Assembly: GCA_028285305.1 (NCBI GenBank)
Contig: JANQPV010000008.1
Span: 1-54,034, forward strand
Length of the DNA stretch: 54,034 nucleotides
Source: Alphaproteobacteria bacterium
GTDB lineage: Bacteria; Pseudomonadota; Alphaproteobacteria; SMXP01
Direction: 5' to 3'
In this document: one piece after another, positions 33,374 to 37,130 of the stretch
Numbering within the stretch: the first letter of the stretch is position 1
How the letters are laid out: every line of letters starts with the position of its first letter
Program-made: the position numbers and the translations under genes
Notes under the pieces: model-generated
Told to the model about the DNA's origin: nothing
What the model saw: the letters and a program-made list of their open reading frames with translations, nothing else
Database searches by the model: none

Positions 33374-33742
33374 GCCCCACTCACAAATCACAGCAGAAAT
33401 CTATCATAATTGGTGATCGTTGCAAATGGCGTGCGCGGACGCTCACGAAAACGCGAAGACGAGCCGGATGTGACCGTTTGCATGCGGTATGGGATTAGTT
33501 AACTGAGCCGTACGAAGACTAAGTACCGACAACCATAGCGCCTACCGAGAACAAATGGCGCCTATTTGTTGCGAATTTTTTTCGCGTGATGTTGCGAAAT
33601 AAGTTATGCCTTTGAAATCATTGTATAAAAGCATGAGGGTGGTGGCCCCTCCCGAACGGCAAGTGGCCTAGCAAATTCAACGGCTTACGTGTTGCGAAAA
33701 CCAAAGCAGCCCAACGGATTTCCTTGAGCCCAAAGAGGTCTG
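33374..33742. other. Noncoding region at the left boundary of the tRNA-Leu insertion
   Basis: No gene is visible in these 369 bp. They hold a perfect inverted repeat (aacaaat 33550-33556 / atttgtt 33564-33570) and four copies of the word GTTGCGAA (33568, 33591, 33691 and 33742) spread around the left direct repeat at 33640-33654. Confidence 0.6.
33640..33654. repeat. Left direct repeat (attL-like) of the tRNA-Leu island
   Basis: 15 bp tggtggcccctcccg, identical to the 3' end, including CCA, of the tRNA-Leu gene at 36882-36896. Identity stops at both ends. This is the arrangement left by site-specific integration into a tRNA 3' end. Confidence 0.75.
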
Positions 33743-34428
33743 TTGCGAAAGCGTGAAATGGCCTTCGACCTCGAAACCACCGGCCTCGATCCCAAGAAAG
33801 GCCATCGCATCATCGCGGTGGGCGCAGTCGAACTTGTGGACCACATCCCCACCGGCAACCATTTCCACGCCTACATCAATCCTCGCCGCTCTATTGATCC
33901 CGAAGCGCTGAAGGTACACGGCCTGCCCTCCTCGTTCCTTCGAACGCAACCGGTCTTCGCCGAGGTGTGGCCCAAGCTCAAAGAGTTCATCGGCGACGAT
34001 CCTTTGGTGATCCATAACGCCGCCTTCGACCTTGCCTTCCTGAAAGCCGAAATAGACCGCCTCGGCGAGACGCCATCGACACCCTGCATATGGCGCGGCT
34101 GAAGTTCCCAGGAGCGCATGTGACGCTCGATGCTCTGTGCACGAAGTTCAAAGTCAACAAGGACGCCCGGTAGCTGCATAGGGCGTTGGTGGATCTGCAG
34201 CTTCTGGCGCACGTCTTCACGAATTTGAAGGGTGGGAGGCAAGCCGATCTTTTGTTGGCTCAATTGGACAATGATTATTCAGATATGAGCAACTATACGT
34301 TGGTGAAGCGTGCCACTATCAGAGTTCCGCCCACAGGGGCAGAAGTGAAAGCACACCGAAAATTCCTCTCCAACAAGGTTCCGAACGCCAAATGTTGGGG
34401 ATTCTTCGAGCGGAAGCTTCTCTTGTAA
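33743..34428 (+). pseudogene. dnaQ: DNA polymerase III epsilon subunit-like gene, frameshifted and interrupted
   Basis: The first part encodes the 3'-5' exonuclease ExoI motif FDLETTGLDP and ExoII FIGDDPLVIHNAAFDLAFL. At about 34070 the frame is lost next to an apparent deletion of several codons. The continuation IDTLHMARLKFPGA...TLDALCTKFKV is read in another frame from 34075. An in-frame TAG at 34171-34173 then replaces an expected residue just before the ExoIII-like LHRALVDLQLLAHVF, and the homology runs on to GGRQADLLLA and the C-terminal tail. Two independent lesions make this a pseudogene. It starts with TTG behind an AGAGG ribosome site. The chromosome presumably has an intact dnaQ elsewhere. 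Confidence 0.85.
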
Positions 34429-34473
34429 GAACCTCCAGCTGCGTGTTCCGATTGCCCTTAATCTTAGGCGCAC

Positions 34474-35466
34474 TTAAAGAGACTTCATCTCAGCCCCTTC
34501 GACTTGGGTTTGCTGACCGGTTGATGTCGTATCCCTTTTATCCGGATCGCGCGTCGTCAGCATTGTCTTCCCGTTGAAGGTCGAAGCGTTCAGCAGATCT
34601 TCAATTTTAAAGCCTCTAAACAATTCTTCGAATTGTTGTTCTGAAAACAATCCAAATCCGTTCAAATTTTCGGTTTTCAGGTCTGACAAACTACCCAGAC
34701 CGTCGATCAACTTTTCATTCTCGTGCCGCCTAAATAGTATCCTCCCACACATCATCATGGATCCTGTGTGACGTCTAAGCAAAAGGCCTACAATGTTGTC
34801 CATCGGCTCTTTACTATAAGAAAGACCAACGAAGACTGGTGTTCCTCCGTGCCGTTCAGTTCCAACCAAGAAATTGTTCTCATCGCAACAAACAACTTTA
34901 CCTCGATAGAGGTTCGGAAGGTTGGCCTCAGGCCTAACAGATGTATTCGGAATAATGTCTTCAAACTCTAGGTGGGGGGGGTTCGCGTCCTCGTACGGCT
35001 TGATCCAGGTGAGACCAGTAATCACCGGTTCGCTTATCGGGTTGGTAGTATGATGGCGCAATCGCGCAAAGCGATACAAACCACTTATGTTTTCGCTTAT
35101 CTCCATCAGATCCTCGCGCGTAACTTTTCGCACACCAGGAAAAACCTCTCGCAACGGATCATCTTTGGACCGATCTTGACGGGAGATTCCCTTGAGGCAA
35201 TCTAAGGCGAGTTCGACCCAAGGCGGCATGACATCGATGTTGTTTTCTGCTATTTCGAGCAACCTCCCGCGAAATTCTTCGTGAAGATGGTCATATGCGC
35301 CGTCCTGAAGAAAATGACGGCGAAACTTACTCCCGTCAATCACTCCTCCCTGCTTTCCACTAGAGTCGAGGACAATTGATCTGTAACTTACGTCGCCGTT
35401 TGACTGGTAGCGGAGAAAGTCGAACACGCACTGAAAAGCCCCAAGTTCCTCAGTCGTGAGAGCCAT
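34474..35466 (-). CDS. Unrecognised 330-residue island protein
   Basis: I do not recognise the family. The start at 35466 (MALTTEELGAF) follows AAGGA at good spacing; an open extension to 35553 lacks support. The N-terminal about 120 residues are helical and charged. The middle (about 130-270) looks like a beta-rich sensor-like domain (ISGLYRFARLRH, SEPVITGLTWIKPY, LPNLYRGKVVCCDENNFLVGTERHGGTPVFVGLSY and GSMMMCGRILFRRHE). The C-terminus is polar. There is no membrane segment or signal peptide. Two palindromic operator-like sites lie 80-116 bp upstream. The gene is more AT-rich than the surroundings. Confidence 0.7.
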   Translation of the reverse strand: MALTTEELGAFQCVFDFLRYQSNGDVSYRSIVLDSSGKQGGVIDGSKFRRHFLQDGAYDHLHEEFRGRLLEIAENNIDVMPPWVELALDCLKGISRQDRSKDDPLREVFPGVRKVTREDLMEISENISGLYRFARLRHHTTNPISEPVITGLTWIKPYEDANPPHLEFEDIIPNTSVRPEANLPNLYRGKVVCCDENNFLVGTERHGGTPVFVGLSYSKEPMDNIVGLLLRRHTGSMMMCGRILFRRHENEKLIDGLGSLSDLKTENLNGFGLFSEQQFEELFRGFKIEDLLNASTFNGKTMLTTRDPDKRDTTSTGQQTQVEGAEMKSL

Positions 35467-35546
35467 TTCATAATTCCTTAAGATATTAGAGCGATTGGAC
35501 CAAGCAGCGGTAATATGGCAATATCTTCGCGGATTCCACATCATAT

Positions 35547-35560
35547 TTGCCAATTCGGCC
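35547..35560. promoter_or_regulatory. Operator-like palindrome, imperfect copy
   Basis: ttgccaattcggcc is an imperfect match to the perfect palindrome 20 bp to the right, centre to centre (two helical turns). Confidence 0.5.
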
Positions 35561-35565
35561 TTGAA

Positions 35566-35582
35566 ATTGCCGATTCGGCAAT
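35566..35582. promoter_or_regulatory. Operator-like perfect palindrome
   Basis: ATTGCCGA-T-TCGGCAAT, 8-bp arms around one base, between the divergent unknown gene and the ribbon-helix-helix gene. With the imperfect copy it forms a tandem operator, probably for a regulator of this island. Confidence 0.6.
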
Positions 35583-35721
35583 TTAGACTGAGACTTGGAA
35601 CAGATAGAGGGATTGTTTCAAAAATGGGGGCTCTGTTGATTACATTGAGTTCGAGTCACATGTCAAACGTTTCGCGGGGCCCAACCCGAGCTTGTCCGAG
35701 ATGCGATAGTGGAGAAGGATA

Positions 35722-35955
35722 ATGTCGGCGACCGACCTGAAACTTGTTGGGTTTCGAGTACCTGCGGAAATCAAAGAGGATCTTCAAAAGGAGGCTGAAA
35801 ACGCTGGCTTCTCTACTGTAGCATCTTATCTTCGATCAGCTTGGCGCCTGGCTAAAGCGCGACCAGATCTTTTGAGCCAAATTGAAGCCGAAGAATTGGA
35901 CTACCAACAAAACCGCCCCATGAGCTGTTATCATCCAATGGCTCGGCGCGAATAA
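35722..35955 (+). CDS. Ribbon-helix-helix DNA-binding protein
   Basis: A 77-residue protein with a clear RHH fold: strand KLVGFRVPAEI, helix KEDLQKEAENAG, turn FSTVA and helix SYLRSAWRLAKA, then an acidic and polar tail. Proteins of this kind are antitoxins or small repressors. There is no toxin gene immediately after it; instead a palindrome, a promoter and a structured noncoding stretch follow. A ribosome site AAGGA lies close to the ATG. Confidence 0.75.
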   Translation: MSATDLKLVGFRVPAEIKEDLQKEAENAGFSTVASYLRSAWRLAKARPDLLSQIEAEELDYQQNRPMSCYHPMARRE

Positions 35956-36272
35956 TTGCTACGCGTTACGCGTATCTCTTCTTGACAACGATTAACTGTG
36001 TTCTATTGTAACATTACTCTTTAATGGGTAGTGCTTTGTTTGCGTGGTGCTCTATTGAGGGGTGCAGGGGAAGTCGGATTGCAGCCGACTTCACACCTGC
36101 TGTTTCACTGGTGAGAATTATGCTACCACACCAGGAAAGACACTTATCTAATGTTTCGTCGGGTTAAAGTCAACTCGGCCACGCTTTCCTGCGGTTTTTC
36201 TCACCTTTCGCCAACCGCCCCAATTCCGCTAAATCGGCACAATTGGGGCACTTGCTCGAAAGCGAGGAAGCC
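35956..36272 (+). promoter_or_regulatory. Palindrome, promoter and structured leader or small RNA
   Basis: No gene is visible in these 317 bp. In order they hold a palindrome tacgcg-tta-cgcgta (35960-35974), a perfect -35 TTGACA (35982-35987) with a weak -10 about 16-17 bp further (36004-36010), and a strong bulged hairpin (gcagg 36064-36068 and aagtcgg 36071-36077 pairing with ccgactt 36085-36091 and cctgc 36096-36100). A second hairpin (ctggtg 36108-36113 / caccag 36129-36134) follows. The transcript would run into the small membrane protein gene, so this is either its structured 5' leader or an independent RNA. Confidence 0.5.
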
Positions 36273-36596
36273 ATGACAAATAATGTCACAGGTCCCGTCG
36301 AACAGATCATTGTGTTTGTCGTTTCCGTTTTCACCGGTGACGGCGGCCACTACGTAGGCATGTTCGCTGATGAAGGTGGTGTTCAGCACCTTTTCCTAGG
36401 TGTCGTTGTATACGTTTTTCATGAAAACATTCGACGGGCGTTCAACACGCTAGTGCGCGGTATTGCGCGGGCTGTACTCAGATGCACCAAGAAGTTACGC
36501 CAGGCCATGAATGCTTGGATCGTCGCTGCAACTGTCTTCTGCTCCGGTGCGATCTGGACATGGTTTTCGTATCCCTGGATGATCGTTCTGGGATGA
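36273..36596 (+). CDS. Small hydrophobic island protein, function unknown
   Basis: A 107-residue protein with a hydrophobic N-terminal stretch (IIVFVVSVFTG), a second one (VQHLFLGVVVYVFH), a basic amphipathic middle (RRAFNTLVRGIARAVLRCTKKLRQ) and a C-terminal membrane helix (WIVAATVFCSGAIWTWFSYPWMIVLG). I do not recognise it; a holin-like or small membrane-effector protein is possible but unsupported. The ATG at 36273 follows GAGG at good spacing. A strong hairpin ends the unit 8 nt after the stop. Confidence 0.55.
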   Translation: MTNNVTGPVEQIIVFVVSVFTGDGGHYVGMFADEGGVQHLFLGVVVYVFHENIRRAFNTLVRGIARAVLRCTKKLRQAMNAWIVAATVFCSGAIWTWFSYPWMIVLG

Positions 36597-36603
36597 CACC
36601 TTT

Positions 36604-36634
36604 GGGGGTCAGCCAAAGTCTTCCGGTGACCCCC
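36604..36634 (+). terminator. Terminator-like hairpin after the small membrane protein
   Basis: The stem gggggtca (36604-36611) pairs with tgaccccc (36627-36634), 8 bp, just after the stop. There is no clear T-run, so termination efficiency is uncertain. Confidence 0.55.
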
Positions 36635-36881
36635 AGCTTTCACGGGTACAGCAACTTTGTCTCTCGCCTGGCTCGCAAGCTTCCCCAATTCAATCGGCAA
36701 ATGAAAACGAATTTGCCCGTACACTGAACAACATCGCACCGAGGCCACTTTTCCCAAGGGCGAACTTAGGGCCACACACACAGCGCTGCATGCTCAGATC
36801 AACCCAGAACCTGGGGCCGCACTTGGAACAGCGGGTATAATACTCCGCTCTGAGTCATTGCGTCTCGATCTTTTTTTGATT
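36635..36881. other. Noncoding right end of the island
   Basis: No supported gene is present. The segment runs up to the tRNA 3' end; I see no recombinase fragment in it. Confidence 0.4.
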
Positions 36882-36896
36882 TGGTGGCCCCTCCCG
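36882..36896. repeat. Right direct repeat (attR-like) within tRNA-Leu
   Basis: 15 bp identical to 33640-33654; it forms the 3' end of the tRNA gene, so integration left the tRNA intact. Confidence 0.75.
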
Positions 36897-36968
36897 GACT
36901 CGAACCGGGACGATCTTGCGATCCCAGGATTTTAAGTCCTGTATGTCTACCAATTCCATCAAGGGGCC
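36882..36968 (-). tRNA. tRNA-Leu (anticodon TAA)
   Basis: An 87-nt gene with encoded CCA. The acceptor stem GGCCCCT pairs with AGGGGCC, the anticodon arm is CAGGA-CTTAAAA-TCCTG (anticodon TAA, leucine), and the T-arm is CCCGG-TTCGAGT-CCGGG. A variable arm fits a class II tRNA. Its 3' 15 nt are the right-hand copy of the island direct repeat. Confidence 0.95.
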
Positions 36969-37130
36969 ACGGCGGGCCCCTCATGTACGCGAGCGGGACC
37001 CAGAGAACAAGCCTTGAGTTGGCCGTTGCGGTTACGCGGGGTGCGAGCCATAGCAGCTCGCACCCTTAGACCAATGGTGCAAACCGAACGCAGACGTCAT
37101 GCAAGCGGTCCTCAAATCGAGGAGCTGTCT

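Follow-up and report, generated by a model that had tools for sequence, protein, structure and literature searches.

The window analysed here is a 54,034-nucleotide stretch, contig C27 of a 5.42-Mb alphaproteobacterial genome in 77 contigs. Positions 33743 to 34428 of its forward strand hold a nearly full-length homologue of DnaQ, the epsilon subunit of DNA polymerase III, laid out in three pieces and two reading frames. This dnaQ relic is contained in an island of 3.24 kb between a tRNA-Leu(TAA) gene and an 18-nt copy of the 3' end of that gene. The features of the locus are as follows, with the basis of each call in parentheses.

33567..33749, + strand: four identical 9-nt direct repeats TGTTGCGAA, starting at 33567, 33590, 33690 and 33741, a pair on either side of the far att core, resembling arm sites
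33640..33657, + strand: far-end att core, a copy of the tRNA-Leu 3' end, 17/18 identical (repeat search; two places in the genome at ≤2 mismatches)
33743..34069, + strand: first piece of the dnaQ relic (piece 1), with exo I and exo II (D9, E11, D96) and a TTG start (ORF; Pfam PF00929; profile positions 5-110)
34064..34074, + strand: lesion 1, a change of frame within a loop of 11 nt that is 27-42 nt long in homologues (loop lengths in 73 homologues; frames)
34072..34170, + strand: dnaQ relic piece 2, in the shifted frame (profile positions 119-151)
34171..34173, + strand: lesion 2, in-frame TAG (translation)
34174..34428, + strand: dnaQ relic piece 3, exo III part (H146, D151), QADLLL, and C-terminal tail with conserved E, H and W (profile positions 153-223; conserved columns)
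34474..35553, - strand: orphan 359-aa ORF, orf359 (no match in the searched collections)
35722..35955, + strand: 77-aa ribbon-helix-helix-like ORF, weak similarity to the mobilisation proteins NikA/MobA (PF21983 and NF041264, below cut-offs)
36243..36596, + strand: 117-aa ORF, no family match (Pfam, PADLOC, PHROGs and NCBIfam searches)
36882..36899, + strand: att core inside the tRNA-Leu gene, at the tRNA 3' end (repeat search)
36882..36968, - strand: tRNA-Leu, anticodon TAA, presumed integration target (ARAGORN; Rfam RF00005)

The piece-1 ORF runs from a TTG start at 33743 to 34102; it matches Pfam RNase_T/Exonuclease at 85.8 bits (cut-off 24) and positions 1-107 of the 231 in TIGR01406 (dnaQ_proteo). 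Homology resumes in another frame at 34072 and continues, through the TAG at 34171-34173, to a stop codon at 34426-34428. Searched separately with a DnaQ profile of length 230, built from 69 intact homologues, the three pieces gave collinear matches at model positions 5-110 (163.5 bits), 119-151 (38.5) and 153-223 (36.4), an ordered match that is, judged by these scores, far above chance. Together with the frame change and the TAG, these matches bear out an earlier note on this DNA, which had described a near full-length dnaQ-like pseudogene with two lesions at the correct coordinates. Piece 1 passes the looser subfamily-domain model TIGR00573 (108.7 bits versus 71.5). The equivalog cut-off of TIGR01406 (222.7 bits) is not reached, either by piece 1 alone (135.3) or by 34186-34428, most of piece 3, alone (16.5), and the frame change and TAG mean that the relic does not form a single open reading frame. 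The relic is a broken member of the proteobacterial DnaQ family, not a working one. PADLOC also returned DEDDh and PDC-S48 matches for piece 1, which are taken to reflect the shared exonuclease fold.

All five residues of the DEDDh motif, as it is named in PMC12926913, are still encoded in the relic (D9, E11, D96, H146 and D151 in joined numbering) and align to the family residues. At the domain junction, roughly where E. coli has its QTSMAF clamp motif (PMC4478557), the relic has QADLLL, which appears clamp-binding-like. At the usual start position the relic has a K codon in place of M; a candidate start is the TTG that lies two codons upstream and closely follows a GAGG.

The frameshift near 34070 and the in-frame TAG at 34171 that the earlier note had reported were both located, and refined to approximately 34064-34074 and to 34171-34173, respectively. 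Between the conserved L and the I of IDTL, the relic has a loop of 11 nt, compared with 9 to 14 codons in 73/73 aligned homologues (10 codons in 52 of the 73). Because of this loop length, lesion 1 is most simply read as the net loss of about 19 nt from a variable loop rather than a one-base indel; a single-base slip was considered and rejected on the same ground. The loss comes to 16-31 nt according to the homologue and alignment chosen, and its exact size depends on the ancestor. A shortfall of 16-31 nt also makes sequencing error unlikely, since it does not resemble a homopolymer slip. In favour of an intact gene, the conserved positions are well kept. However, lesion 2 is an independent nonsense codon, and the usual start position is altered as well. 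Moreover, stop-to-stop frames of at least 180 codons, on either strand, cover 86% of the window, although three other stretches of more than 600 bases have no such frame. We therefore consider it highly improbable that both lesions are assembly or sequencing errors and that the gene is in fact intact.

How well the relic is preserved was scored over 70 columns conserved in at least 85% of the 69 reference rows, of which the host dnaQ is one. The relic keeps 59 of the 70, compared with 61, 57 and 62 for three intact phage or plasmid copies (L063, L066 and L067) and 67 for the host gene; by region, it keeps 32/39 up to lesion 1, 24/28 in the next stretch, which contains lesion 2, and 3/3 in the tail. 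Mean identity to 58 alphaproteobacterial rows over the same three regions, in order, is 52%, 52% and 18.5% for the relic, against 57%, 61% and 25% for the host dnaQ, 56%, 50% and 24% for L063, and 49%, 55% and 26% for L067. The relic thus resembles intact mobile copies in the exonuclease domain and is lower in the tail (18.5% versus 24-26%). Its codon-position GC is still gene-like, and decay is not far advanced at the conserved sites. The earlier note had called the codons well preserved and the inactivation probably recent. The first part stands at the conserved positions, where the relic keeps about as many as intact mobile copies do, with the reservation that the tail is less alike; the second does not follow, because no close intact relative by which to date the relic was found (best identity 58% among the matches listed). 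One might imagine that the tail fragment 34186-34428 (80 aa, with a TTG start) is still made, as a decoy with a clamp-binding-like motif and a polymerase-binding-like tail and with no working exonuclease, and that it competes with the host epsilon and raises the mutation rate. If true, a proofreader would have been turned into an anti-proofreader by decay; we regard this as scarcely credible.

The earlier note had proposed comparison with the chromosomal dnaQ. An intact 237-aa host DnaQ lies on another contig of the genome (G000:C24), adjoins coaE and scores above the TIGR01406 and NF004316 cut-offs. The relic is only 53% identical to it over 102 residues, and is therefore neither a recent duplicate of the host gene nor the only dnaQ in the genome; the idea of a second copy close to the host gene is not supported by this comparison. 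The four other genomes of the family each have one match to piece 1, linked to coaE. Across the class, piece 1 finds matches in 371/385 genomes. Twenty hand-picked genomes with two or more matches were re-examined, and each proved to have one match of 95-136 bits and no second above 77.6 bits, so a second true epsilon copy in the chromosome looks uncommon among these 20. No coaE match was found in the stretches around the relic (L003, L005 and L034), compared with a coaE at 56/56 examined chromosomal alphaproteobacterial dnaQ loci (43 + 13), which are best-scoring hits rather than a random sample.

In a free careful tree, the relic falls among alphaproteobacterial DnaQ proteins on an unresolved long branch, with bootstrap values that had not settled, and does not group with the mobile copies. 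(This tree left out L003, L005, L006 and L034, which duplicate the host gene and the window, and 12 rows below 90 bits.) The branch is 2.39 long, compared with a median of 0.49. Long branches are not peculiar to the relic; they are common to intact plasmid copies (2.37 for L066, 1.62 for L063 and 3.87 for L068). One viral relative, L111, was discarded as a DnaQ: its translation, judged by eye, is that of a DNA polymerase carrying an exonuclease domain of its own. Constrained trees that join the relic to the host family (p-AU 0.877), to the host gene alone (0.763) or to the phage and phage-like plasmid copies (0.579) were not rejected in a test from which a further 14 of the 74 rows had been dropped, namely the longest row and near-identical ones. 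All three constrained trees outscored the free quick tree, so the free quick-tree search was incomplete. The trees do not settle the origin of the relic.

These results bear on whether the relic could stem from an old duplication of the host dnaQ followed by decay, and not from cargo that arrived with an element. The first two constraints fit such a history, each being unrejected and better than the free quick tree. Against it, the identity to the host gene is no higher than to many other alphaproteobacteria, and in the free careful tree the host gene groups with its own family (99/87) and the relic lies elsewhere. Moreover, the relic sits between tRNA-derived repeats and has no coaE neighbour. 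An old duplication is accordingly an unlikely origin.

The placement of the relic inside an island, as the earlier note had it, is confirmed by the tRNA-Leu(TAA) gene and the direct repeat of its 3' end that bound the 3.24 kb. Integrative elements that insert at tRNA 3' ends are a known class of genomic islands. The att core occurs at only two places in 5.4 Mb at ≤2 mismatches, and a reversed control at none. Judged from its sequence, the anatomy is that of a putative tRNA-targeted element reduced to a remnant. No tyrosine integrase was found on this contig, all 15 PF00589 matches in the genome lying on other contigs, and none of the island ORFs searched against Pfam, PADLOC, PHROGs and NCBIfam had a family match indicative of a recombinase. 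On another contig, at G000:C4:88989-89489, a match to the phage integrase family is interrupted by an in-frame TGA. The analysis turned up no intact copy of the island. An empty site was sought by synteny around mnmA in four other genomes of the family, where that stretch has tRNA-Met, not tRNA-Leu. A search of plasmids for DNA similar to 33500-37050 gave four records, all with a single short match near the tRNA gene. GC content is about 59% and 52% in the two parts of the relic and 47% in orf359; the window mean is 55%, and the first part of the relic lies above it.

The 77-aa ORF matches PF21983 with an E value of 0.0021 (18.6 bits; cut-off 27) and NF041264 with an E value of 0.028 (14.9 bits; cut-off 80). 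PADLOC gave no match for any island ORF searched other than piece 1 of the relic. For orf359, there was no match in Pfam, PADLOC, PHROGs, NCBIfam, plasmids, phages, viral contigs or four other genomes of its order, and we rejected it as a candidate defence or phage gene on the null results from all but the last of these. It is open over its full length despite the decayed island. Beside its start, at 35540-35590, there are two copies of TTGCC(A/G)ATTCGGC, seen by eye, which are possibly operator sites for its own control.

The far att core has a further peculiarity in the TGTTGCGAA repeats. On one side, the copies begin 73 and 50 bases ahead of the core; on the other, they begin 33 and 84 bases past its last base. 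This arrangement resembles the arm-type sites around the recombinase core of tyrosine-recombinase att sites. In the window there are five copies, compared with a shuffle mean of 0.88, and none of 100 shuffles reached five. Two of the four repeats fall outside the island as drawn. The last one, at 33741, overlaps the TTG start of the dnaQ relic. The arrangement is somewhat like a phage attP, and the repeats are candidate arm sites; operator sites are the simpler alternative. If they are arm sites, the junction would resemble attP, which hints at two successive integrations, the far core being a leftover attP-like junction and the left-hand element having been lost or decayed beyond recognition. 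Consistent with this, the repeats flank the far core and have no counterpart at ≤2 mismatches between 36500 and the tRNA gene. However, a search of the window for a third core gave none at up to 3 mismatches and, at 4, a single one (47854) that lies beyond the tRNA gene, on the opposite side. The absence of a PF00589 integrase from the contig and the operator alternative also speak against it. Searches for the repeat-plus-core pattern did not help the case: in viral contigs, the stricter form had 0 matches and the looser form 12, none of which continues with the rest of the core and two of which have a second TTGCGAA nearby; all 12 look like chance. Among 385 class genomes the pattern was found in one, this one, which says little about rarity because the reversed control likewise gave one hit, in a different genome. 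Two integrations are thus a possibility that we hold only tentatively, as the less probable history. The repeat-flanked core may nevertheless help to find an intact parent element.

Taken together, we think it very probable that the relic is the dead cargo dnaQ of an integrative element in the 3' end of tRNA-Leu(TAA), now decayed to a 3.24-kb remnant with no recognisable integrase. The cargo reading draws on the lack of a coaE neighbour, on an att core present only twice in 5.4 Mb, and on the existence of intact coaE-less DnaQ proteins on phage and plasmids. It is weakened by the missing integrase, the sub-cut-off NikA/MobA match, the GC mismatch and the two repeats outside the island, as well as by the lack of an intact island copy and a tree that does not group the relic with mobile copies. 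The DnaQ homology, the two lesions, the surviving catalytic residues, the intact host dnaQ and the att duplication are observations; beyond them, we infer the following course of events. An integrative element would have entered the tRNA-Leu(TAA) 3' end with a dnaQ-like gene as cargo. The intact product was very likely an epsilon proofreading subunit of the proteobacterial type, that is, a DEDDh 3'-5' exonuclease with a clamp-binding-like motif and a polymerase-binding-like tail, and would presumably have worked within DNA polymerase III during replication of the element. The loop deletion and a nonsense codon before the third exonuclease motif now block any full-length protein, and the element itself probably decayed and lost its integrase.

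The earlier note had called proofreading subunits on mobile elements unusual. That was overstated: tblastn of piece 1 found relatives in 1431/72,556 plasmid records and 94/50,697 phage records, all below 60% identity, although members of the exonuclease superfamily at large are counted too, as are some housekeeping dnaQ genes on secondary replicons. Indeed, two of the six relatives first opened are housekeeping dnaQ-coaE blocks on secondary replicons; three are intact DnaQ genes with no coaE, among replication or recombination genes (on a Bradyrhizobium phage, a phage-like Methylobacterium plasmid and a large Bosea plasmid); and the annotation of the last goes no further than an exonuclease-domain protein. 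In a seventh, Wolbachia phage WO (WOVitA1; L127, 3001-3517), the dnaQ-like match is split over two annotated genes. One survey reports that a proteome has, on average, over three standalone DnaQ homologues (PMC12926913), and another paper describes a phage-borne theta homologue able to take the place of the host subunit (PMC7556043). Proofreading parts on mobile elements are therefore already known. A literature search covering part of the matching papers brought up no dnaQ pseudogene described from a tRNA island.

The relic is an ordinary gene relic, not a new system. It is one more instance of a proofreading subunit for replication that an integrative element probably carried and that was afterwards lost. 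Such an instance bears on the question of whether it pays mobile elements to supply fidelity factors of their own, which this one inactive copy, from one genome, does not test by itself. Among known systems, the apparently broken epsilon-like gene of Wolbachia phage WO is comparable as a dnaQ-like stretch on a prophage with a match in two pieces, but belongs to another phage and host with other neighbours. The DnaQ proteins of Bradyrhizobium phage BDU-MI-1 and Methylobacterium indicum pVL1_2 are likewise of the epsilon type and on alphaproteobacterial mobile elements, with a common clade with the relic neither shown nor rejected (p-AU 0.579); they are intact and lie among helicase, primase and ssb genes, whereas the neighbours of the relic are unrelated. 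Compared with proteobacterial DnaQ (TIGR01406/NF004316; PDB 5fku chain D), the relic has a broken frame, no coaE neighbour and at most 58% identity among the matches listed, yet it aligns over almost the whole length, with DEDDh, the C-terminal E, H and W, and QADLLL at the likely place of the clamp motif. Finally, although it has no recognised integrase and spans only 3.24 kb, the island shares two features with tRNA-targeted genomic islands: a tRNA gene as the presumed target, and a second, directly repeated copy of the 3' end of this gene at the opposite boundary.
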